Made by a program: the position numbers and the translations under genes. From assembly GCF_001611675.1 (NCBI RefSeq), contig NZ_CP014766.1, positions 1,922,001 through 1,986,000 on the forward strand: 64,000 bases of DNA, given 5' to 3'. The notes under the pieces were generated by a model that made no database searches, was not told the origin of the DNA, and worked only from the letters and a program-made list of their open reading frames with translations. The stretch is from Pontibacter akesuensis. Its GTDB lineage: Bacteria > Bacteroidota > Bacteroidia > Cytophagales > Hymenobacteraceae. Positions 5,434 through 55,545 of the stretch are shown in pieces; the stretch's first letter is position 1; every line of letters begins with the position of its first letter.

Positions 5434-6507
5434 CTATGCTGAGGCGCCTTCTTTCATTCTTTCGGCATTCTCCGCCATACGCAGCTCCTCCACAAAATCT
5501 TCTATACCGCCGTCCATTACATTCGGCAGGTTGTATACCGTGTAGCCGATGCGGTGATCGGTTACGCGGCCTTGTGGGTAGTTGTACGTACGGATTTTGT
5601 CAGAGCGGTCGCCGCTGCCCACCATGCTCTTGCGCTGTGCGCCTTCTGCCTCGTTTTTCTTGGCAAGTTCGATCTCGTAGATACGCGAGCGCAGTACAGC
5701 AAGCGCCTTATCGAAGTTCTTCAGCTGTGATTTCTGGTCCTGGCACTGGGCCACGATACCCGTTGGAATGTGCGTTAAGCGCACGGCAGAATAGGTCGTG
5801 TTTACCGACTGCCCACCAGGTCCGGAAGACATGAACAGGTCTTTGCGGATATCGTTCATGTCCAGGTCAATATCAAGCTCCTCTACCTCCGGCAGCACCA
5901 CTACCGAGGCAACCGAAGTATGGATACGGCCCTGTGTTTCGGTGGCCGGCACACGCTGCACGCGGTGCACCCCCGACTCAAACTTCAGCTTGCCGTACAC
6001 GTCCTCGCCGGACATGCCCACGATAATTTCCTTGTAACCGCCAGAAGTACCTTCGGTGGCATCGATGAGTTCTGTGCGCCAGCCCATCTTTTCGGCAAAG
6101 CGGCTGTACATGCGGTACAGGTCGCCGGCAAATATAGAGGCCTCGTCGCCGCCCGCACCCGCACGGATTTCCATGATGATGTCCTTGCTATCGTCCGGAT
6201 CTTTCGGGATCAGCATCTCTTTCAGGAGCTCCTCCATCTCGTCACGCTGCGGCACCAGCTCGTCCAGCTCTTCTTTGGCCATCTCCCTGAAATCCTCATC
6301 CTTCTCCGTGGCAATCACCTGCTTGGCGTTGTCGATGTTGCTAAGGATATTCAGGTACTTCTTATATTCAACTACTATCTTGTCAAGGTCCTTATACTCT
6401 TTGTTAAGCGACTTGAATTTCTTCATGTCGCTGGCCACGTCAGGCTGGGTAAGTAACTGACCTACCTCCTCAAATCGCTGGTTAATGGCTTCTAACTTAT
6501 CTAACAT
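5434..6507 (-). CDS. prfA: Peptide chain release factor 1
   Basis: Recognises UAA and UAG stop codons in the ribosomal A site and triggers peptide release. The 357 residues match the normal length for RF1. The catalytic GGQ loop is present ([10 protein letters not shown], near residue 231). The codon-recognition region reads [19 protein letters not shown], with the PAT tripeptide of RF1 rather than the SPF of RF2. An acidic segment ([18 protein letters not shown]) precedes it. The gene is transcribed leftward into a strong hairpin at 5362-5406. Upstream a CAAAGATA (6531-6538) reads TATCTTTG on the coding strand and fits a -7 box. It appears to be a single-gene unit. Confidence 0.98.
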
Positions 6508-6806: not shown

Positions 6807-7130
6807 ATGGCTGTTATCAAAGCAACTGACACCGATTTCAAAGCGGTTCTTAGCTCAAACCAAAAAGTGGTGGTAAAATACTATGCTGATTGGTGCGGAA
6901 ACTGCCGCTTGTTTTCACCCAAGTACAAGCGTTTGTCTGACGATGAGGCATTCACGGATGTGGCGTTTGTGGACGTGAACGCCGAGACGAGCCCTGAGGC
7001 CCGCAAACTGGCCAGTGTAACGAACCTTCCGTTTTTTGCTATCTTCCAGAACGGCGAGTTGGTAGATACTGTGGCTGCCAGCAAAGAGGAAGCCGTACGT
7101 GACCTGATCAGCAAACTAAACCAGAACTAG
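6807..7130 (+). CDS. Thioredoxin-family protein with WCGNC active site
   Basis: A 107-residue single-domain thioredoxin fold, cytoplasmic because no signal peptide is present. The redox pair is Cys30/Cys33 in WCGNC, where classical thioredoxin has WCGPC. Replacing Pro by Asn should change the redox potential and may shift the partner. The cis-proline loop is present as TNLPFF. A small acidic protein is encoded 2 bases downstream, so the two are almost certainly co-transcribed. A TACCTTTG -7 box lies at 6740. Likely role: disulfide or peroxide-linked thiol chemistry; the partner is not visible in this window. Confidence 0.9.
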   Translation: MAVIKATDTDFKAVLSSNQKVVVKYYADWCGNCRLFSPKYKRLSDDEAFTDVAFVDVNAETSPEARKLASVTNLPFFAIFQNGELVDTVAASKEEAVRDLISKLNQN

Positions 7131-24080: not shown

Positions 24081-24156
24081 AGCCTAGCAATTAAATAAAC
24101 CTGAAAAAAAAATTAAATATTAATAATAGAAAGTTCTTAGCTGTGTGATTTCTCTG

Positions 24157-24164
24157 CAAAAGTA
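24157..24164 (-). promoter_or_regulatory. Candidate leftward -7 box
   Basis: Reads TACTTTTG on the minus strand, 77 bases before the start of the IPT/TIG gene. No well-spaced -33 box was found. An alternative is CAAAGATA at 24309-24316. Confidence 0.4.
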
Positions 24165-24628
24165 GCTTATGCAATAGGACATATAATACCTTGAGAAATT
24201 TATTTGGCGAAAGTTGTGCAACTCGACCTAGCTCCGCAATAAGTAATTATTTAACACTCTCTGTCTCTTTCGCTTAAGCTCTTCTTATATCACGCCATAA
24301 ATATAGTGCAAAGATAACACAACTGGCAAATTATTTTTTGTGAATTTCTATATAATTATAGCATCATATAGAGTTTTGCGAATGATTAGCTTTCACTGAA
24401 GCTTGAGTACTATTATTAATTGAATAATAAGAAGTATGGTTAAAAAGGTATTTAACCTTCTTTTTGAGCTTGTAACGGTTAAAAATAGCAAATAAACAAC
24501 GTCAATAACAAGTAGGCCATACTTGTTATTTGCGTAACCCTCTAAAGCTGAACAAGCAAACTGCAGCCTATATCTTTAATTTTTTTTATTGCTGTTATAT
24601 TAAATAAATTTTATTAAAGGCATTAAGC

Positions 24629-24660
24629 TTTGCTTATATATATAACATTTAATACTTTTG
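24629..24660 (+). promoter_or_regulatory. Consensus Bacteroidota promoter
   Basis: TTTG (24629-24632), a 20-base spacer and TACTTTTG (24653-24660): the best match to the -33/-7 consensus in the window. It implies a leader of roughly 80 bases before the ATG at 24746. Confidence 0.75.
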
Positions 24661-24745
24661 GTCAGAAAATCTATTGACCCCCAATCATTTTCTTTATAAA
24701 AATAATACCATAAAACGTTTTAAACATTTTAAATTCATAATTTAT

Positions 24746-46714: not shown

Positions 46715-46748
46715 ACGTTAGATTTTAAACGTTAGACACAGGATTTTA
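46713..46748. repeat. GACGTTAGATTTTAAACG repeat
   Basis: GACGTTAGATTTTAAACGTT sequence immediately after fumC. Related copies lie at 61865-61890 and, inverted, at 62083-62130. All three are next to terminator hairpins. Confidence 0.65.
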
Positions 46749-46769
46749 TACTTGTGTTTACAGATAAAG

Positions 46770-46799
46770 AAAAGGCAGCTCCTACGGGGGCTGCCTTTT
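46770..46799 (+). terminator. fumC terminator
   Basis: Stem AAAAGGCAGC/GCTGCCTTTT (46770-46779 with 46790-46799), followed by TTTGTTTA. It separates fumC from the AT-rich orphan gene. Confidence 0.85.
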
Positions 46800-46815
46800 T
46801 TGTTTATATTGTACT

Positions 46816-47688
46816 ATGGATACAGCCGAAAATAGAGATTTGCTAAAGCTTTACGAGGAAGTAAAAAGTAAAGGCACCTTCACATATCTTAGAGAATTAG
46901 AAAGCTTTAAGGATGGAGAATTCTATAAGTTCTACCTCTTCCTTAAAACAAATCGGCAAGTAATATCAATTCTTAAATACAATTACTATCAGCTTATCAA
47001 ATTAATTAACTACCACAATTCACCCGAGAACCAATCAAAAGTTTGGAATGAGATAAACCCTAGATATCGGTGGAAGCAGCAAAGGATAATTACAAGTCAA
47101 CTCTTTAACTATCTAACTAGTGTTTTTGCAACAGTAGATTATTCAAGAAGTAAACTAGCAAGATACATAGTACAGAATCCAGAGGTAGCTAACAACTTTA
47201 AATTAAGCATAGAAGTTTACTTTGATAAAAATCCACAACACAAGTTTATCCAAGATTTAAGAAATTTTACTAGTCATAATTCTTATTTAAGAGTAGCAAC
47301 TGAGATTAAATCCAAGAGCCATACTATTGAAGTAGAGCGAAATCTCTATTTGCTGAAGGAAGATCTGCTTAACTCAGATAAGTGGTCTAGTTTATCTAAA
47401 AATTTTATTAGCTCACTGGATAAAAAAATCTATATAATTGACACTATTGAATCTCACTTTCCATTATTTAAAGAGTTCCAAGATTGGACATATTTAGCTC
47501 TACTAAAAGTAGATCCAAAATTCACATTACACTTCAGAAATAAGCTACTAGATATGCTCGAGTTTGCAGAAAAGGTAAATATGGCTCGAACCTCACTTCC
47601 CTTCAACCATGCTTATATTAGATATCTAGACCTGATTATTAAGGAAAGTGCCAATAGGTGCAATAAGCAATTCAGGTATGCTTCCTAA
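46816..47688 (+). CDS. AT-rich orphan protein with HEPN-type Rx4H motif
   Basis: A 290-residue, mainly alpha-helical cytoplasmic protein, rich in Lys, Asn, Phe and Tyr. Its codons are strikingly AT-rich compared with every neighbour, so recent transfer is likely. Helices about 95-120 (SQLFNYLTSVFATVDYSRSK) precede KFIQDLRNFTSHNSYL. In this, Arg149-Asn150 and His154 form the RNxxxH pattern of HEPN ribonucleases, found in toxin-antitoxin, abortive-infection and Cas13 proteins. No antitoxin partner or nuclease lies adjacent. It starts 17 bases after the fumC terminator and is followed by repeat-rich DNA. HEPN membership is inference from one motif and helix content, not a proven family match. 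It could instead be a non-catalytic helical protein. Confidence 0.55.
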   Translation: MDTAENRDLLKLYEEVKSKGTFTYLRELESFKDGEFYKFYLFLKTNRQVISILKYNYYQLIKLINYHNSPENQSKVWNEINPRYRWKQQRIITSQLFNYLTSVFATVDYSRSKLARYIVQNPEVANNFKLSIEVYFDKNPQHKFIQDLRNFTSHNSYLRVATEIKSKSHTIEVERNLYLLKEDLLNSDKWSSLSKNFISSLDKKIYIIDTIESHFPLFKEFQDWTYLALLKVDPKFTLHFRNKLLDMLEFAEKVNMARTSLPFNHAYIRYLDLIIKESANRCNKQFRYAS

Positions 47689-48167
47689 TCCCGCTAGTTT
47701 AGCGCCAGCGCAAATTGTGGTTATACTTATAGCCAGTTTGTAACTGGCGTTCGCCGTACTTGTACTTTCGCAAGTTGAAAACTTGCTGCCACACTTCCCC
47801 ACATTTACCGCTACAAGCCTTACCCTGTTCCGATTCTTTTTCAGATTTGGCCTTTTTAGGATGAGCAGCACCAAAGGTGGTTTAAGATTATCCCCTTGAG
47901 GACAAGTGAGAACGAGAGTTCGAGACTTGCGAGTATTACTCAATAGGGGTGTTTACACCTGCAGATTCTCCAGTTTCTGCTCAGAAAAGCGGTCTGCTCC
48001 GTAGCTTTACACCCCTGTAGTCCCCTCAAGGGGACAATTCTTCTAAATAAGGGCTTTTTCCACAAAAGACATGCAACAGGATAAAGTCAGGAACTCGCGC
48101 CAGCAATAGCAGCAAAGGCCAATCAGAACATTGTACTTCGCAGTAAAAACCCAATGCCTTAAATCTT
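47689..48167. other. 479-base repeat-rich intergenic region
   Basis: Contains TATACTT (47722), a small CCAGTTTGTAACTGG palindrome (47733-47747), a CGCAAGTTGAAAACTTGC palindrome (47769-47786) and a 34-base unit at 48009-48042 that recurs at 54896-54928. Reading frames here are only frames through repeats. Confidence 0.65.
48009..48042. repeat. TAGTCCCCTCAAGGGGAC dispersed element
   Basis: A 34-base unit centred on the palindrome GTCCCCTCAAGGGGAC. A copy with the same flanks lies at 54896-54928, and a partial relative is at 47889-47905. Confidence 0.75.
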
Positions 48168-48908
48168 CTACTGCTTTCCAGCCGGTTTCAGCAAAATCTC
48201 ATTTACATTAGCGTGAGCTGGCAGCGTAAGCGCATAAAGTATAGAGTCCGCAATGTCTTCCGGCTCCAGCTTCGACTCGCCATTGCCCCAATCCATATCG
48301 CTTAGCAACTCTTTGTCCGTTACAGACTCCCGCAGATCGGTGTTAACTGTGCCGGGCTCAACAGACGTGATGCGTATATTGTAGTCCGGGGAAAGCTCCA
48401 TCCGTAGCCCTTCTGAAAGCGCAATGATAGCGGCTTTGGTGGCTCCGTACACAGCTCCGCCGCGGTACATCACCCGTCCATCAATAGAAGCCATGTTCAC
48501 AATGTGGCCGCTCTTGTTTTTGATCATGGTCGGGAGCACCGCGTAAACAGTTTTCAAAATACCCTTCAGGTTTACGTCTACCATCTTCTCCCATTCTTCC
48601 AGGTGGCGGTTCTTCATGTAGGAGAGGGGCATCAGGCCGGCGCTGTTCACCAGGATATCGATTGTGCCATACTTGTCCAGCGCGGTTTGAACCATGGCTT
48701 CCACCTGATCCAGATTCGTTACGTCTGTTTCAGCTATAGCGGCTTCACCACCCCTGCTTTCTATTTCCTGCTTCACTTCTTCCAGGTCGTCAGTATGGCG
48801 TGCTGCCAGTACTACTTTGGCCCCTGCTTCCGCCAGTGCCTTTGCGGTGGCTTTCCCTATCCCTTGCGACGCTCCGGTTACAATGGCTACTTTGTTAGTT
48901 AGCTTCAT
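48168..48908 (-). CDS. SDR-family NAD(P)-dependent oxidoreductase
   Basis: A 246-residue classical short-chain dehydrogenase. TGASQGIGKATA is the cofactor motif. ILVNSAGLMPLSYM carries NSAG in place of NNAG. The catalytic Ser lies in NMASIDG and the pair in YGATKAA (Tyr and Lys). The family includes oxidoreductases acting on alcohols and sugars. No close gene partner clarifies the substrate. It differs from the stress-type SDR at 28590, having no N-terminal extension. A TATACTT lies 35 bases upstream (48943). Confidence 0.88.
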   Translation of the reverse strand: MKLTNKVAIVTGASQGIGKATAKALAEAGAKVVLAARHTDDLEEVKQEIESRGGEAAIAETDVTNLDQVEAMVQTALDKYGTIDILVNSAGLMPLSYMKNRHLEEWEKMVDVNLKGILKTVYAVLPTMIKNKSGHIVNMASIDGRVMYRGGAVYGATKAAIIALSEGLRMELSPDYNIRITSVEPGTVNTDLRESVTDKELLSDMDWGNGESKLEPEDIADSILYALTLPAHANVNEILLKPAGKQ

Positions 48909-49014
48909 AGTTCTCTTTGTTTCGTAGTTTCGTAAAGCTTTTTATACTTGTCGCTGGAGAAGGGGGTTATTTCAGGACCGCAAGATCTGCACATTTTTAC
49001 ACCCTGCGCCTGCT

Positions 49015-49022
49015 TACCTTTG
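49015..49022 (+). promoter_or_regulatory. Candidate -7 box of the AraC-type regulator
   Basis: TACCTTTG fits the Bacteroidota -7 consensus and lies 20 bases before the ATG at 49042. A -33 box is not clear. Confidence 0.5.
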
Positions 49023-49041
49023 GTTTAAATACTTGAAGGCC

Positions 49042-49860
49042 ATGTTACATTCTGTTCTAGCATACATCAACAGCCACCTGGACGAGAACATCTCGCTCGA
49101 CGAGCTGGCAAAGGTAACGGGCTACTCGCCTTACCACCTGCACCGCAAGCTGAAAGAGGAGCTGCAGGAGCCCATTGGCGGATTTATTGTGAGGCAGCGC
49201 ATGCAAACGGCGGCTTACCTGCTGTGCCTCACCGAGCTTCCTGTTTCCGAGATAGGCCTGCTGGTAGGGTATGAGAACGACAGCGCCTTCAGCAGGGCGT
49301 TTAAAAGCACCATGGGCGCTACGCCCAAAGCTTTCCGGAAGCAGCAGGATGTGCACAGCAAGGATTTGCAGCAGGCCCAGTATGTATCGCTCAAATGCGA
49401 GGTAGTGCGCCTGCCGGAGCAGCAGGCAATCGTTTTCCCCAGCATTGGCAACTACTTCTCCAGAGACATTTACAAAGTATGGGACAAGGTGAAAAGCTTT
49501 ATCGAGAGCGAAAACCTGACACCAGCTGACTTCATCTTTATGGGCGTGCTCCACGACTGCCAGAACGTGAACCCACAGAGCCTCTGCCGTTACGACGCTG
49601 CCATCATTTGCAAGAAGGATACAAAGCTGAACGTCAACAAGAATTTCATCACCACACTCCCCGGCGGAAAATTTGCCAAGTACAGGTTCTGCTGCCCTGT
49701 GACAGAATACGCCAACATTGGCGGGCTCATAAACAGCCACCTGCAGCACGAGGCGCACCAGAAGCACGCTTATGGCATTTCGTATTTCCGGTTTCAGACG
49801 CTGCCTACCCACGACACAGCAGATAATTTATTTATAGAGTGGTTTATTCCGATTAACTAA
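49042..49860 (+). CDS. AraC-family regulator with GyrI-like effector domain
   Basis: 272 residues. N-terminal AraC-type double helix-turn-helix (about 1-105): ISLDELAKVTGYSPYHLHRK and LPVSEIGLLVGYENDSAFSRAF. The C-terminal half (about 110-272) matches the GyrI-like/effector-binding small-molecule domain (VRLPEQQAIVFPSIGNYF, YGISYFRFQTLPTHDTADN). The ATG at 49042 is preferred; a TTG three codons upstream is also in frame. The adjacent membrane protein gene is 13 bases downstream, so this regulator may control it. Such proteins often answer toxic organic ligands. Confidence 0.88.
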   Translation: MLHSVLAYINSHLDENISLDELAKVTGYSPYHLHRKLKEELQEPIGGFIVRQRMQTAAYLLCLTELPVSEIGLLVGYENDSAFSRAFKSTMGATPKAFRKQQDVHSKDLQQAQYVSLKCEVVRLPEQQAIVFPSIGNYFSRDIYKVWDKVKSFIESENLTPADFIFMGVLHDCQNVNPQSLCRYDAAIICKKDTKLNVNKNFITTLPGGKFAKYRFCCPVTEYANIGGLINSHLQHEAHQKHAYGISYFRFQTLPTHDTADNLFIEWFIPIN

Positions 49861-49873
49861 ACAAAATACAACG

Positions 49874-50554
49874 ATGAAAAAGAGAATTGTAAGCTGCCTG
49901 AGCATTATCGGGCTGGCAGGGCTGGTCTTTGCCTTTGGTGACCTGTTGATTCCACAGGAAAACGTAATTTTTGAGGCGGCACAACGCCCGCAGGCATTCG
50001 CTGAACTGGTGACATCCTCTAACTACTCTATTTGGGCTGCAAGGGGATTGGTGGGCGTGCTGATGGAGATGATCGGCACCGTGGGTTTATACTTGTACCT
50101 GCAGCAAACGAAGGCAGAGCGCCTGGCCTTCTACGGGCTGCTGCTCACGCTCACGCACCACATTTTAGGAGTAGGTGTTTTTGCCCTGGCCATCTTCCTG
50201 TTCCCGGCAGTGGGCGAGATGGTGCTGGCGGGGCAGCCGGAAGCTGTGCGCTTCGCCACCATGGATGGCGCATTAGGTGCCTTTATGGGAGCCTCCCTGG
50301 TGTCTACACTGGCAGGCCTGGCCCTAATGGCGGTAGCTATCTGGAGGAGCGGCATACTTCCAAAATGGTCGGGCTGGCTGGTGTTCCTGGGCTTTGCACT
50401 TGTACCAGTGCCCAGCGTAGCGCTGCAGTTTTTCACCAACATCCTGTGGGGCACCGCCTACTTTTGGATGGCCTATACGGTGTACAGAAACTGTAGCGAG
50501 CAGCAAGCGTCGGAAGAGAAGCCAGCAGGCCAGCTGATCGGCAGCAAGGCGTGA
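49874..50554 (+). CDS. Six-helix membrane protein (DUF4386-like)
   Basis: 226 residues with an N-terminal signal anchor and about six membrane helices (IVSCLSIIGLAGLVFAFGDL through ILWGTAYFWMAYTVY). It fits the DUF4386 type of membrane protein often encoded beside AraC-type regulators. No conserved catalytic pattern. It ends in a short charged tail and is followed by a terminator (50580-50607). Confidence 0.75.
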   Translation: MKKRIVSCLSIIGLAGLVFAFGDLLIPQENVIFEAAQRPQAFAELVTSSNYSIWAARGLVGVLMEMIGTVGLYLYLQQTKAERLAFYGLLLTLTHHILGVGVFALAIFLFPAVGEMVLAGQPEAVRFATMDGALGAFMGASLVSTLAGLALMAVAIWRSGILPKWSGWLVFLGFALVPVPSVALQFFTNILWGTAYFWMAYTVYRNCSEQQASEEKPAGQLIGSKA

Positions 50555-50579
50555 GCACTGTAGCTAATGAAACAGTAAA

Positions 50580-50607
50580 AAAAGCAGCCTTTGCCGGGGC
50601 TGCTTTT
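50580..50607 (+). terminator. Terminator of the AraC-membrane protein unit
   Basis: Stem AAAAGCAGCC/GGCTGCTTTT (50580-50589 with 50598-50607) followed by CCTTTTTTTG. Confidence 0.83.
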
Positions 50608-50677
50608 CCTTTTTTTGAGTAGCTTGAAGAGACATACTTATGCGCGTGTATTAGTACGCTTTTCAGAAATAGCCCCT

Positions 50678-51157
50678 ATGGAAAATCTCTTGGTTGACAA
50701 AAAGTACCTGCTGGAGAAGTTCCCCGGCAAAGGCGGCTGGACCTGTGCAGCGATACCTGAGATCGCGCCGGACAAGCATGCGTATTTTGGCTGGGTGCGG
50801 GTAAAGGGCCGCATAGACAGCTATGAGCTAAAGAGCTTCCACCTGATGCCGATGGGCAACGGACAGCTTTTTCTGCCGGTAAAGGCAGAGGTTCGGAAGA
50901 AGCTAAAGAAACAGGCCGGGGATTGGGTGCAGGTAACCTTATACTTAGATAGCACGCCCCAGGAGGTACCGGAAGAGCTGCTGCTGTGCCTACAAGACGA
51001 GCCGCTTGCGCACGAGCAGTTCCTGAAGTGTACTCAGCGTGAACAAAAAGACTACATCGACTGGATATATAACGCTAAGACAGATGATTTGAAAGTACAG
51101 CGTATTGTGCAGACGATTCAAAAGCTACTGAGCGCCCAAGAGCTGCACCGGAAGTAA
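50678..51157 (+). CDS. DUF1905/YdeI-type small protein
   Basis: 159 residues from the ATG at 50678. The first 95 residues match DUF1905 (FPGKGGWTCAAIPEI, YFGWVRVKGRIDSYELKSFHL, FLPVKAEVRKKLKKQAGDWV). The rest is a YdeI/OmpD-associated-like helical tail (LKCTQREQKDYIDWIYNAKT). It is cytoplasmic, role unknown. It is followed by a GNAT gene after a TATACTT-bearing gap (51181). Confidence 0.8.
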   Translation: MENLLVDKKYLLEKFPGKGGWTCAAIPEIAPDKHAYFGWVRVKGRIDSYELKSFHLMPMGNGQLFLPVKAEVRKKLKKQAGDWVQVTLYLDSTPQEVPEELLLCLQDEPLAHEQFLKCTQREQKDYIDWIYNAKTDDLKVQRIVQTIQKLLSAQELHRK

Positions 51158-51220
51158 CACCACAACAAACAAACACAGGCAAGTATAGCTGTTTCAGGCT
51201 TACTGCATTCGCCTTTAAGC

Positions 51221-51751
51221 ATGGAGCACATCAGATTAACAGACGCCTCGCACAGACTTTTCGAGAAGGCTTGGGCGCTGTATGAACAGGCATTTCCTCT
51301 GGAAGAACGTCGCCCTTTGCCCTGGCAGGCTGAAGTTATGGCTCATGTTGATTATCATTTTGAGCTTATACTTCAAAACGAGGAGCTGGTGGGCATTCTG
51401 CTCTGGTGGGGCTTTGAAGATGTGCGTTTCCTGGAGCATTTTGCTACTGCTCCGGCTTTGCGAGGCAAGGGATATGGCAGTCGCATGCTGCTAGACTTTC
51501 TAAACCGCGATGCGCGCCCTGTGCTACTGGAGGTAGAGCCTCCCGAGAGCGAGGTCAACCGCCGCCGCATTACATTTTATGAGCAAACTGGCTTTTGCCT
51601 GAACCAGCACTTTTACCAGCAGCCTCCTTACCACCAGGGGCAGCAGCCCTTAACGTTGCTGCTTATGTCTTATCCGAACCCTATTACTGCCGAAGAGACG
51701 GCTACATTTGTGCGCCTGCACCACCCGCTCATTTATCGGACAGGACTGTAG
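51221..51751 (+). CDS. GNAT-family N-acetyltransferase
   Basis: A 176-residue acetyl-CoA-dependent acetyltransferase. The pyrophosphate-binding motif A is FATAPALRGKGYGSRMLLDFL. The following strand, ARPVLLEVEPPESEVNRR, carries the usual EVE pattern. Substrate unknown. Closely linked to the DUF1905 gene, but probably not co-functional. Confidence 0.85.
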   Translation: MEHIRLTDASHRLFEKAWALYEQAFPLEERRPLPWQAEVMAHVDYHFELILQNEELVGILLWWGFEDVRFLEHFATAPALRGKGYGSRMLLDFLNRDARPVLLEVEPPESEVNRRRITFYEQTGFCLNQHFYQQPPYHQGQQPLTLLLMSYPNPITAEETATFVRLHHPLIYRTGL

Positions 51752-51831
51752 GCAGCTTGTTTTTCTCTTGAGGCTTTTCCGCTTTACCTGTTTTATGGCC
51801 GCTCCTGACTTATACAGTAGCTGCTTATACT

Positions 51832-51839
51832 TATATTTG
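51832..51839 (+). promoter_or_regulatory. rlmF -7 box
   Basis: TATATTTG fits TAnnTTTG. It overlaps the end of a TATACTT motif (51826-51832), 55 bases before the rlmF ATG. No good -33 box. Confidence 0.45.
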
Positions 51840-51894
51840 TGCTGTTACTATTCGTAGTCTGATCTGATGCTCCAATTCAGACTTTTATACCGCC

Positions 51895-52863
51895 ATGCCA
51901 CCTAAAAAGAAAATTCACCCAGAAGAAAAGCCAGGCCTGCACCCGCGCAATAGGCATCGGGCGCGATACGATTTCGAGCAACTGGTGGCAAGTTGTCCGG
52001 CGCTGAAGCCTTTTGTGCAGGTGAATGCCTACGGAGATGATTCGGTTGACTTCTTTGATCCGAAGGCGGTCATCATGCTGAACAAGGCGTTGCTGGCGCA
52101 CTTCTACGGCATTCAGAATTGGGATATTCCGGCAGGCTACCTTTGTCCGCCTATACCTGGCCGCGCCGATTACATCCATCATGCCGCCGACTTGCTGGCT
52201 GTTGCCAACCAAGGGCAAGTACCAACGGGCAGCAACGTCAGCTGCCTGGATGTGGGCGTGGGGGCAAGCTGTGTATATCCCATCATCGGGAACAAGGAGT
52301 ATGGCTGGAGTTTTATTGGGGCTGATATTGACCCGGTTTCCATTGCCTCGTCCGGCAAAATAGTGGATGCGAACCCTGCGCTTAAAGGAAAGGTGGAATT
52401 GCGGCTGCAAAAGAACCCGCAGGATATTTTCAGAGGGATTATCCAAAAAGAGGAGCGGTTTGACCTAACGGTTTGTAACCCGCCGTTTCATGCATCGTTG
52501 GCAGAGGCACAGGCAGGCACGGTGCGTAAAGTATCAAACCTGAAGCAGCAGAAAGTAGCCAAACCAATTCTTAACTTCGGAGGGCAGCAGGCAGAGCTGT
52601 GGAGCCCGGGAGGGGAGCGGCGTTTTGTGGCGGACATGGTTTACCAGAGCCGGCAGTTTGCCACGTCCTGCTTCTGGTTTACGACGCTGGTATCGAAACA
52701 AACGAACCTGAAAAGCACCTACCAGGCACTAAAGCAGGCAGAAGCGCTGGAGGTGAAAACAATTCCGATGAGCCAGGGAAACAAAACCAGCCGCCTCGTA
52801 GCGTGGACATTCCTGAACCAGGCGCAGCAACAGGAATGGGTAAAGACCCGGTGGGACAGCTAA
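51895..52863 (+). CDS. rlmF: 23S rRNA (adenine-1618 N6) methyltransferase
   Basis: Methylates A1618 of 23S rRNA. The 322 residues contain the RlmF core: the SAM-binding CLDVGVGASCVYPIIGNKEY and the catalytic N6-adenine motif CNPPFHASLAEA. The N-terminal LHPRNRHRARYDFEQLVASC and the C-terminal SRLVAWTFLNQAQQQEW also fit. A clear single-gene unit, with a -7 box at 51832. Confidence 0.95.
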   Translation: MPPKKKIHPEEKPGLHPRNRHRARYDFEQLVASCPALKPFVQVNAYGDDSVDFFDPKAVIMLNKALLAHFYGIQNWDIPAGYLCPPIPGRADYIHHAADLLAVANQGQVPTGSNVSCLDVGVGASCVYPIIGNKEYGWSFIGADIDPVSIASSGKIVDANPALKGKVELRLQKNPQDIFRGIIQKEERFDLTVCNPPFHASLAEAQAGTVRKVSNLKQQKVAKPILNFGGQQAELWSPGGERRFVADMVYQSRQFATSCFWFTTLVSKQTNLKSTYQALKQAEALEVKTIPMSQGNKTSRLVAWTFLNQAQQQEWVKTRWDS

Positions 52864-53021
52864 CAAGTAATTTATACTTGTAGCCCCGCCATGTTTTGCA
52901 CCATCAGACCTTTGTTGTACTAGCGATGTTGCCGAGAAAGCCTTAATTTTCTGCCTTCTAAAGTATAAATCCAGCCATCAACAACCACTACAGCCTTACA
53001 CCCCGCCAAAGAGCCCTCACC

Positions 53022-54047
53022 ATGAAACAACGCTACAGCTACGCCATACTGTTCTTGATCCTTCTAGGCGCTTTTTCGTGCAGGCAAGCCGAGGAACAAC
53101 CCGACATTGAGGCCATAGAAGCTGAAATGGCCAAGGGAGATTCGGCTACAGTAGCTGCAGTAGTAGCTGATACAGCAGGAACCGCTGCTGCAAAAGCCAC
53201 CGAAGCGCTGGCAAAGGAATGCATCGCCTATTTCGAAGAATGGGAAAAGCTACGTGCTGCCAGTACAGATTACTACAGAACGGTGGTTTTGCCCAAGGCG
53301 CTGGCAAACCCAAGGCTTCCGGAGCAGAACATGGCTTTTCTGCTGGCCTTGGAAATATACCTTAGCCAGACGCCGGAAGAAATCCGCGCCATACCGACTA
53401 CCAACCAGCTGCTGTTCCCAATCTTTAAAGTGAATGAGAAGGAGATGGGTGTCTTTGCTTTCCCGGCCTATGATACCGCGAGCGAGGATTTTATAGATAT
53501 CTCCATTGAAAACAACATCCTTGCCCGCAGCAAACTGACAGCCACCATCGACAGTTCGGCCCAATACAAAGTGGTTTTTCACCCGGAGCTGGCAGATTCG
53601 CTGCTCAAGACAATTGACCCCACCGTCACCGCTTTCACTGCAAAAGGAAAAGTAAAGACAAAGGTGGTAAACTTTGGCTCCTACGCCGGCGAGTGCCTGG
53701 AGTACTATAACTACCTGCTGGACAGCAAGCCCTTCAGCAAGCATGCTAAGGTGCTGTTCGGAAGCATCTACAACCTTAGCCTGGCCTACAGAAACTACCC
53801 GAAGGTGGACGCAACGATGCTGGAGCAGCTCAACGAGAAGTGCTTCGATTGCCCCAGCAGCATGGAAGAGCAGAAGACCTTTGCCACGTTAGAGGGCGTG
53901 GAGGGGCTATACTTTGCTTATGCCGATACATTCCCGCTAAACAACAAGCTCGATACGCCATCCAGGGCGCTGGTGATGGACATGGACGGCAAAATGATTT
54001 ACCTGTGGTACCAGGAGGTAGACTTGGCTGGCTGCAGCTGCATCTAA
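53022..54047 (+). CDS. Hypothetical lipoprotein
   Basis: A 341-residue predicted lipoprotein. The signal ends LLGAFSC (Cys20), followed by an Ala-, Glu- and Thr-rich linker to about residue 70. The folded part is mainly alpha-helical (ACIAYFEEWEKLRAASTDYY-like), with a small Cys-containing segment LNEKCFDCPSSMEE and a final GCSCI. No family recognised. No domain links it to the MsrB gene downstream. Confidence 0.75.
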   Translation: MKQRYSYAILFLILLGAFSCRQAEEQPDIEAIEAEMAKGDSATVAAVVADTAGTAAAKATEALAKECIAYFEEWEKLRAASTDYYRTVVLPKALANPRLPEQNMAFLLALEIYLSQTPEEIRAIPTTNQLLFPIFKVNEKEMGVFAFPAYDTASEDFIDISIENNILARSKLTATIDSSAQYKVVFHPELADSLLKTIDPTVTAFTAKGKVKTKVVNFGSYAGECLEYYNYLLDSKPFSKHAKVLFGSIYNLSLAYRNYPKVDATMLEQLNEKCFDCPSSMEEQKTFATLEGVEGLYFAYADTFPLNNKLDTPSRALVMDMDGKMIYLWYQEVDLAGCSCI

Positions 54048-54176
54048 ACGAGGCTGCTTTACTGTTAGTGTGGACTCCCTTTTTTGCTGCCCTCGTTTCG
54101 CCTAAAACCCTTTCGGAGCGTTTGTTGTTTATACAGGTACACGTAAATCCAAGACTTCATCAGAAAGACAGAACCT

Positions 54177-54578: not shown

Positions 54579-55545
54579 GTATAGAAAGGCAGGTGCAGTG
54601 AGCAGCTGTCCGGTTTGTTGCTGGTTCGCCTTAAAAGGATAGTTCAAGCACTACGAATTACCCTTCCCAGCCTCCTCTTTAGCGTGAAATCCTTACCCCT
54701 CCAGGGAGAAGTATTGCTACTGTTGATAATATTCCTCCCTGGAGGGGTAGGGTGGTTCCGCGAAAAATTTAGCTGAAGTATAAGCGCTGTTGATTGCCTG
54801 ATCGCTCTTCCATCAAGATCCTTTCAGGATGACAAGTGGAGATGAGTGAATAGTAAGTCAGAAAAAAGTGGATTAAAGCGTCAGCAGAAGTACTTACACC
54901 CCTGTAGTCCCCTCAAAGGGACAGTTCTACCTCAAAGAGAGCAATCATATTTGTTGTATAGCGAAGGCAGTAGTTATTGGTATTGTTTCCAGTCCTTGGG
55001 TTGAGCGCCTTGTAGTGATGCGGTGCCCGCGCGAGCGAGATTGCAAAGTGACAGCGAGCAAAGAAAAGGTCCCAGCGCGATGCCTGAGGACGTGGCCCCG
55101 CTCATATAGGGCCCCTACCCCAGCCGTGAGCGCTCCAAAGTATGAGGTGAAACAATGGGTGTTTGGGAGCTGGAGGATGAACAGTAGCTAGAAAGGATAG
55201 CTTGTTTCCAAGTGTAATAAGCAGTGGCTATGGAAGTATAGCAGAAGCAGGCAAAGGCACAAGCGGACGCTTGCGCCAGGTAGTGTGCAAGGTACAGCTG
55301 CCGCTAAGCAAGTATGAATGAAATAAGTATGGCCGCCGCCTAACAAGTATGGCTTTTCAAGCCAGTCAAGCTGCAAACTCAACCTCATGGTAGAACACAA
55401 GTCTGAAGACTTGCGCCAGAGGGAGGCAGCAGCAGCTAAAAGGGTATCAAAAAAACAAGCTATAAAAAGACAGCTTTACAGGTCCCCGCTCCGCAAGCAA
55501 TGGAGGAAGCAGCTTTTTTAAACACGAGCGGCAGAAAGGAAAACC
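54579..55545. repeat. 967-base repeat cluster, no gene
   Basis: Contains an inverted CCCTCCAGGGAG/CTCCCTGGAGGGG pair (54693-54755), CAAGATCCTTTCAGGATGAC (54814-54833), a TAGTCCCCTCAAAGGGAC copy (54896-54928), AAGTATA motifs (54576, 54776, 55234), a GCAAGCGGACGCTTGCG palindrome (55256-55277) and an ACAAGTCTGAAGACTTGCG palindrome (55396-55415). The 55000-55140 part is GC-rich, unassigned and could hold a small RNA or a repeat. No reliable open frame. Confidence 0.7.
55256..55277. repeat. GCAAGCGGACGCTTGCG palindrome copy
   Basis: Fourth copy of the element at 10948, 40615 and 40739, core AAGCGGACGCTT. Confidence 0.8.

Follow-up and report, generated by a model that had tools for sequence, protein, structure and literature searches.

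Downstream of fumC in Pontibacter akesuensis lies a single open reading frame (ORF) of 290 codons, which differs sharply in composition from the DNA around it and encodes a short Arg/His motif resembling that of HEPN ribonucleases. The locus therefore raises two questions: how did such a gene come to reside here, and could its product be a ribonuclease acting in defence against phages, as proposed in an initial annotation of this DNA? We examined the gene in its 64,000-nucleotide stretch of chromosome (hereafter the window), together with its orthologues and more distant relatives (Table 1).

An AT-rich gene in the fumC-msrB interval

The ORF is a real gene, present as a single copy in the genome. 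Pairwise dN/dS among its orthologues was 0.12-0.20 (pairs with unsaturated dS), indicating purifying selection on the protein. The gene had been described as much more AT-rich than its neighbours and as lying alone between a terminator and repeat DNA, and both descriptions proved accurate. Its G+C content is 0.323 (GC3 0.317), compared with 0.557 in the upstream fumC gene (GC3 0.714) and 0.516 in the window as a whole; a terminator-like hairpin stops 14 bases 5' of its ATG, and a dispersed repeat lies downstream. It is extremely unlikely that the gene is a decaying or unselected leftover. Such a reading would draw on its patchy distribution and on stop codons in two homologues, one with an in-frame TAA right after the motif His codon (G005; L005 1860, minus strand), where the remaining frame is still recognisable, and one with a TAA upstream of the motif (G162). 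However, the window copy and three close orthologues are intact, and their low dN/dS largely refutes this reading for the window copy.

The repeat DNA on the 3' side contains a pair of inverted-repeat arms (47887-47901 and 48024-48038), which include part of a dispersed element of about 33 bp, and the 482-bp spacer downstream of the gene has 38 matches genome-wide. The palindromic dispersed repeat (CCCCTCAAGGGGAC...) occurs in the window at 48022-48042 and 54909-54929, is present in over 30 genomic copies, and may be REP-like. Within the window, AT content peaks in the kilobase at 24-25 kb (33% GC), where positions 24081-24673 are mostly an intergenic gap separating two divergently oriented genes that encode large surface-type proteins, and hold no gene of the HEPN-like kind.

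Table 1. Features of the window around the 290-codon gene (positions in the window; a dot marks features that have no strand).
Feature	Positions	Strand	Basis or remark
Variable fumC-msrB interval (accessory-gene hotspot) holding the gene	46715..54176	.	24 genomes compared; AT-rich gene annotation
fumC terminator-like hairpin	46768..46801	+	Same layout upstream of the G165 orthologue
Solo ORF of 290 aa; protein of the HEPN-like family, related to PHROG 12680	46816..47688	+	Orthologues, dN/dS
Codon of Asp108 (second long helix), a candidate for the acidic partner in the active site	47137..47139	+	Role inferred from PMC3710099
Codons of the predicted helix with the motif at its end (residues 140-154; position of HEPN 'helix 3')	47233..47277	+	AlphaFold2 models
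RNFTSH motif: Arg149 (47260-47262), Asn150, His154 (47275-47277)	47260..47277	+	
Codons of predicted beta-hairpin, residues 160-180, right after the motif	47293..47355	+	AlphaFold2 model
Repeat DNA 3' of the gene: inverted-repeat pair and a copy of the ~33-bp dispersed palindromic repeat	47887..48042	.	

The unusual composition had also been taken to suggest recent arrival, and in this simple form the claim fell on comparison with other genomes. A survey of 204 genomes from the taxonomic family found close relatives in three others of the same genus (81, 69 and 58% identity) and a relative with 33% identity in another genus; the closest named relative, at 69% identity, is that of Pontibacter sp. 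HSC-36F09. All orthologues have 32-33% G+C, and their dS relative to the window copy ranges from 0.5 to saturation. They occur in the same interval, directly 3' of fumC in one genome (G165), after fumC and a transposase-like ORF pair in another (G166), and deeper between fumC and msrB in the third (G188). Since low G+C has been kept across so long a divergence, it cannot date the gene's arrival as recent, and we rejected a very recent single gain on the basis of these orthologues and their synteny. A single origin followed by vertical descent in the genus is likewise unsupported: in a fumC tree of 30 genomes, built from this one gene and weak in its deep branches, the four carriers lie so dispersed that four changes are needed, at least three of them forced by well-supported branches. 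Scattered carriage of this kind suggests a history of repeated gain or loss.

The surroundings of the gene are equally variable. The contents of the fumC-msrB interval differ among the 24 genomes compared (including loci L101-L120 and L031-L033), and in many genomes some other AT-rich gene comes first after the fumC terminator. This first position is occupied by a gene for a GHKL-type ATPase in one genome (G151) and for an unclassified protein in two (G149 and G160), while a DUF5677 gene (G157) and a DUF559 nuclease-like gene (G155) are found deeper in the interval. In another genome (G192) the first position holds a gene for a DUF4357 protein that matches the PADLOC candidate PDC-S14 (1.8e-110), and the same kind of protein is encoded there in G172. 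The fumC-msrB interval is thus an accessory-gene hotspot of the genus, and one worth mining.

The Arg/His motif and the predicted fold

The protein contains HKFIQDLRNFTSH, which carries Arg149 and His154. HEPN proteins use an Rx4-6H motif in which a polar residue (N, D or H) typically follows the Arg (PMC3710099). The motif alone is weak evidence, since 70% of shuffled copies of the window protein hold some Rx4-6H and 2.9% hold RNx3H. We therefore turned to conservation in a set of 19 proteins, including the window copy, which was collected by sequence similarity, down to 12% identity, with no use of the motif. Arg149 and His154 were the only positions invariant in this set (19/19). The initial annotation had allowed that so short a motif might be due to chance, and the invariance of precisely these two positions over such distances makes that untenable. 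The residue after Arg149 is Asn in 16 of the 19 proteins and Gln, Asp or Ser in one each, polar in every case as in HEPN motifs; Asn56, Asn98, Leu148 and Leu184 are shared by 18 proteins each. In many HEPN families an acidic residue in helix 2 lies near the active site, often within Ex3[KR] (PMC3710099). Asp108, in the long second helix, is a candidate for this role: the position is Asp in 15/19 proteins and Glu in 1/19, followed by x2R rather than x3[KR], with residue 111 an Arg in 12/19.

Seven more homologues came from viral contigs through degenerate DNA patterns for LRN[YF]xxH or LRN[YF]xxHxxLP, and, having been picked by the motif, were not used in testing conservation. Searched singly against viral contigs, the window protein and four homologues gave no matches, and neither did a direct tblastn search of plasmids and phages with the window protein. 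Five plasmid homologues found later by tblastn (profile E-values 2e-19 to 3e-34) all have the Arg, and two of the five have the His. These two are actinobacterial (L181 and L184), while the remaining three, from haloarchaea (L180 6001-6714, L182 5770-6504 and L183 5719-6495), have R-H-x3-K in place of R-N-x3-H, again with a polar residue after the Arg. Homologues lacking the Arg and His had been named in advance as an outcome that would speak against an HEPN assignment; in the event, Arg is present everywhere and His is absent from its position in the haloarchaeal branch only. This branch is the chief exception to the pattern; it may have lost the catalytic His, or may use the His beside the Arg instead. 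Its missing His, together with the existence of non-catalytic HEPN families (PMC3710099), would also fit a protein of HEPN fold whose role is to bind RNA or a nucleotide without cutting, as a sensor or inhibitor. We regard this as very unlikely for the family, as the invariance of Arg and His in all other homologues is the pattern of catalytic residues.

AlphaFold2 models, built on a ten-row alignment, reached a pLDDT of 75 and a pTM of 0.70 when the full protein was modelled; for residues 30-236 the values were 85 and 0.79. The predicted order is two long helices (35-68 and 82-118), a shorter one (122-137), a helix with the motif at its end (140-154), a beta-hairpin (160-180) and a further helix (207-232), in agreement with the run of helices ending in the motif that had been proposed from the sequence. 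In HEPN domains the motif occupies the end of helix 3, and helices 2 and 3 can be separated by inserts (PMC3710099); the motif of the window protein is thus predicted to be placed as in HEPN, at a helix end after two long helices.

Fold comparison was less favourable. Foldseek searches with two models against the PDB and viral predicted structures returned nothing at E < 0.001, and the 50 best matches listed included no HEPN structure and were mostly long helical bundles, a class for which Foldseek is insensitive. Aligned by hhalign with HEPN_RiboL-PSP, the two motifs were superposed with a score of 18.7, compared with at most 11.1 for ten column-shuffled versions, at a probability of 0.56% and with small query profiles. 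Comparison with PF05168 and DUF4145, also with small query profiles, gave no score above the shuffles; PF05168 is a poor comparison because the members fetched have no clear motif. No member of the LA2681 HEPN family turned up in the genomes sampled, and PDB sequence searches gave chance matches or none. The HEPN identity put forward in the initial annotation is therefore supported by motif conservation and helix order but not by Foldseek or by comparison with the three HEPN-family profiles, none of which was significant. Membership of the HEPN fold is thus suggested, not established.

These same results give some room to an all-helical fold other than HEPN, in which Arg149 and His154 would serve structure, ligand binding or some other chemistry, in what could still be an accessory or defence gene. 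The haloarchaeal R-H-x3-K variant also points this way, as do Asn56, Asn98 and Leu184, which are nearly as conserved as the motif, so that the conserved site may extend beyond it. We nevertheless consider such a fold rather unlikely. The spacing of the motif, the polar residue after the Arg, the position at a helix end and the defence contexts described below all fit HEPN, whereas the failure of Foldseek concerns a class of structures to which it responds poorly and models that rest on few sequences.

Among family databases, the one fit was to a family of phage proteins: PHROG 12680 matches residues 32-230 (E 4.8e-8; profile positions 11-208 of 247), and PHROG 30874 matches one of the homologues (G160) at 8.6e-20. 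Pfam (its HEPN models included) and NCBIfam contain no model that fits the window protein or any tested homologue. Among PADLOC models (PADLOC-DB version 2023; newer lists could hold the family) there was no match to the window protein and none to the homologues, except for a weak Csm2 match in one of them (L052). For the window protein we rejected Csm2 as a candidate: the Pfam match (0.026, residues 148-222) is below the cut-off and not significant, starts inside the motif helix, and comes with no CRISPR neighbours among the homologues. We found no paper naming PHROG 12680 or three homologue accessions. Solo HEPN defence proteins, like the HEPN superfamily itself, are a known kind; the family of the 290-residue protein appears to be an unnamed one within or near them.

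Mobile relatives and a probable role in phage defence

The genomic positions of the relatives bear on function. A homologue from Vibrio sp. HDW18 (L052 5965-6849) is flanked by attC-type repeats (5824-5870 and 6857-6903), which identifies it as an integron cassette; another cassette of this array matches AbiP (2.1e-12), and a HigBA pair follows. Elsewhere, a homologue lies about 2.3 kb from Septu PtuA (7.7e-139) and PtuB (8.4e-90) (G160), another in an island with LmuB/LmuC of Lamassu and a SIR2-type PDC-S25 protein (G487), and a third between an OLD-family ATPase gene and a KAP-type PDC-S20 gene (G451). Several relatives are phage-borne or associated with prophages or phage-like genes: one is situated in a P2-like prophage, after a tail gene D, with a Drt6/Drt4-type reverse transcriptase (DRT) 1.5 kb away (L070), others hold prophage cargo positions (L121, L122, L132 and L134/L135), Marinobacter phage PS3 carries a homologue between its portal and capsid genes, and plasmid pBS32 of B. 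subtilis NCIB 3610 carries one (HTC43_RS00235) beside phage-like genes. Two of the prophage genes (L132 5424-7547 and L134 4545-6716) encode longer proteins of 707-723 aa, in which the HEPN-like domain is N-terminal and a large C-terminal region has no Pfam match.

Two neighbouring genes were observed in passing. A small gene adjoining a prophage homologue (L066 344-913) encodes QLRNAMAH, in appearance a second, different HEPN-type motif, and has no Pfam or PADLOC match; in Rhizobium (L053 4708-5694), a DUF2971 gene lies directly upstream of the homologue with a 10-bp gap, possibly in one operon.

The enrichment of defence genes near relatives is a judgement from named matches rather than a statistic, and several homologues, including the G155/G170/G166 group beside an acylphosphatase gene, have ordinary surroundings. 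The earlier suggestion of a solo defence protein is thus borne out in part: the orthologues are solo, accessory, patchily carried and located in a hotspot, and relatives occur near defence genes, in prophages and in an integron, but the ordinary surroundings of several relatives do not speak for it. On balance, the 290-residue protein is probably a one-gene anti-phage protein, as predicted from these features.

Carriage on plasmids, prophages and an integron, with HigBA following in the Vibrio array, could alternatively point to an HEPN-type RNase toxin or stress-dormancy protein that serves maintenance of the element or a stress response rather than phage defence; stress dormancy has been proposed for integron HEPN proteins (PMC3710099). 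We consider this quite unlikely, as the orthologues are solo, no constant partner gene that might be a putative antitoxin accompanies the homologues, and relatives are found repeatedly beside anti-phage systems and in prophage cargo sites.

We therefore favour, as moderately likely, a one-gene abortive-infection anti-phage effector of an unnamed HEPN-like family, a model for which we infer the fold, dimerization, RNA cleavage and a phage trigger. The protein would be inactive at rest, probably in dimeric form, its two subunits each contributing Arg149 and His154 to a central cleft, until a phage product or a phage-caused change released it. Arg149 and His154 of the released protein would then cut RNA without a metal ion, and this cutting would halt phage growth at the cell's expense. 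The haloarchaeal R-H-x3-K variant and the relatives in ordinary surroundings count against this model, as do the Foldseek and profile comparisons. Extended to the whole family, the same reading has somewhat less than an even chance: relatives in Bacteroidota, Pseudomonadota, Bacillota, Actinomycetota and haloarchaea would form an undescribed family of one-gene HEPN-type anti-phage RNases, with a beta-hairpin following the active site, that prophages, integrons and plasmids have spread; its haloarchaeal branch would have Lys in place of the catalytic His, and a His beside the Arg. If right, the model adds a compact family of solo defence proteins missed by the PADLOC-DB version used, names a testable active site of two residues, and offers laboratory-accessible relatives for phage assays, such as the pBS32 gene of B. 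subtilis NCIB 3610.

Comparison with known HEPN systems

The window protein shares individual features with several described groups. PHROG 12680 and PHROG 30874 are functionally unannotated families of phage proteins, whereas the window copy lies outside any recognisable phage. The Abi-type HEPN families (AbiD/F, AbiJ, AbiU2, AbiV and the C-terminus of AbiA) and HEPN_RiboL-PSP (PF18735) have in common with it the Rx4-6H motif with its polar residue, and the Abi-type families also the abortive-infection setting proposed here (PMC3710099), but no Pfam HEPN model matches the window protein. A beta-hairpin follows the motif in Csx1 (PMC3710099) as it does in our prediction, a likeness of layout only; unlike Csx1/Csm6, the window protein lacks a Rossmann-type sensor domain and is not accompanied by a CRISPR locus. 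An HEPN protein is also known from an integron cassette (PDB 3jrt; PMC3710099), like the Vibrio relative, and PDB sequence searches with the family profile or the Vibrio homologue did not retrieve it.

The closest likeness in mode of action may be to Tha-1 and Tha-2, tail-activated HEPN anti-phage RNases of Staphylococcus aureus prophages that are triggered by a phage minor tail protein; Tha-1 is a solo prophage HEPN protein of 301 aa with the motif RNSIMH, and its H270A mutant loses phage protection (PMC11087260). Tha and the window protein are both solo, about 300 aa long, mobile or accessory, and equipped with R-N-x3-H and no other recognisable domain. Compared by description, they differ in that the HEPN domain of Tha is C-terminal (residues 184-296, motif 265-270) whereas the motif of the window protein is central (149-154), and in that Tha is prophage-borne whereas the window copy sits on the chromosome and adjoins no prophage genes. 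Because of the central motif and the lack of a prophage, we do not file the window protein as a Tha. By analogy, a Tha-like working mode, that of a solo, phage-triggered RNase of the abortive-infection type, is nonetheless the best supported for this protein.
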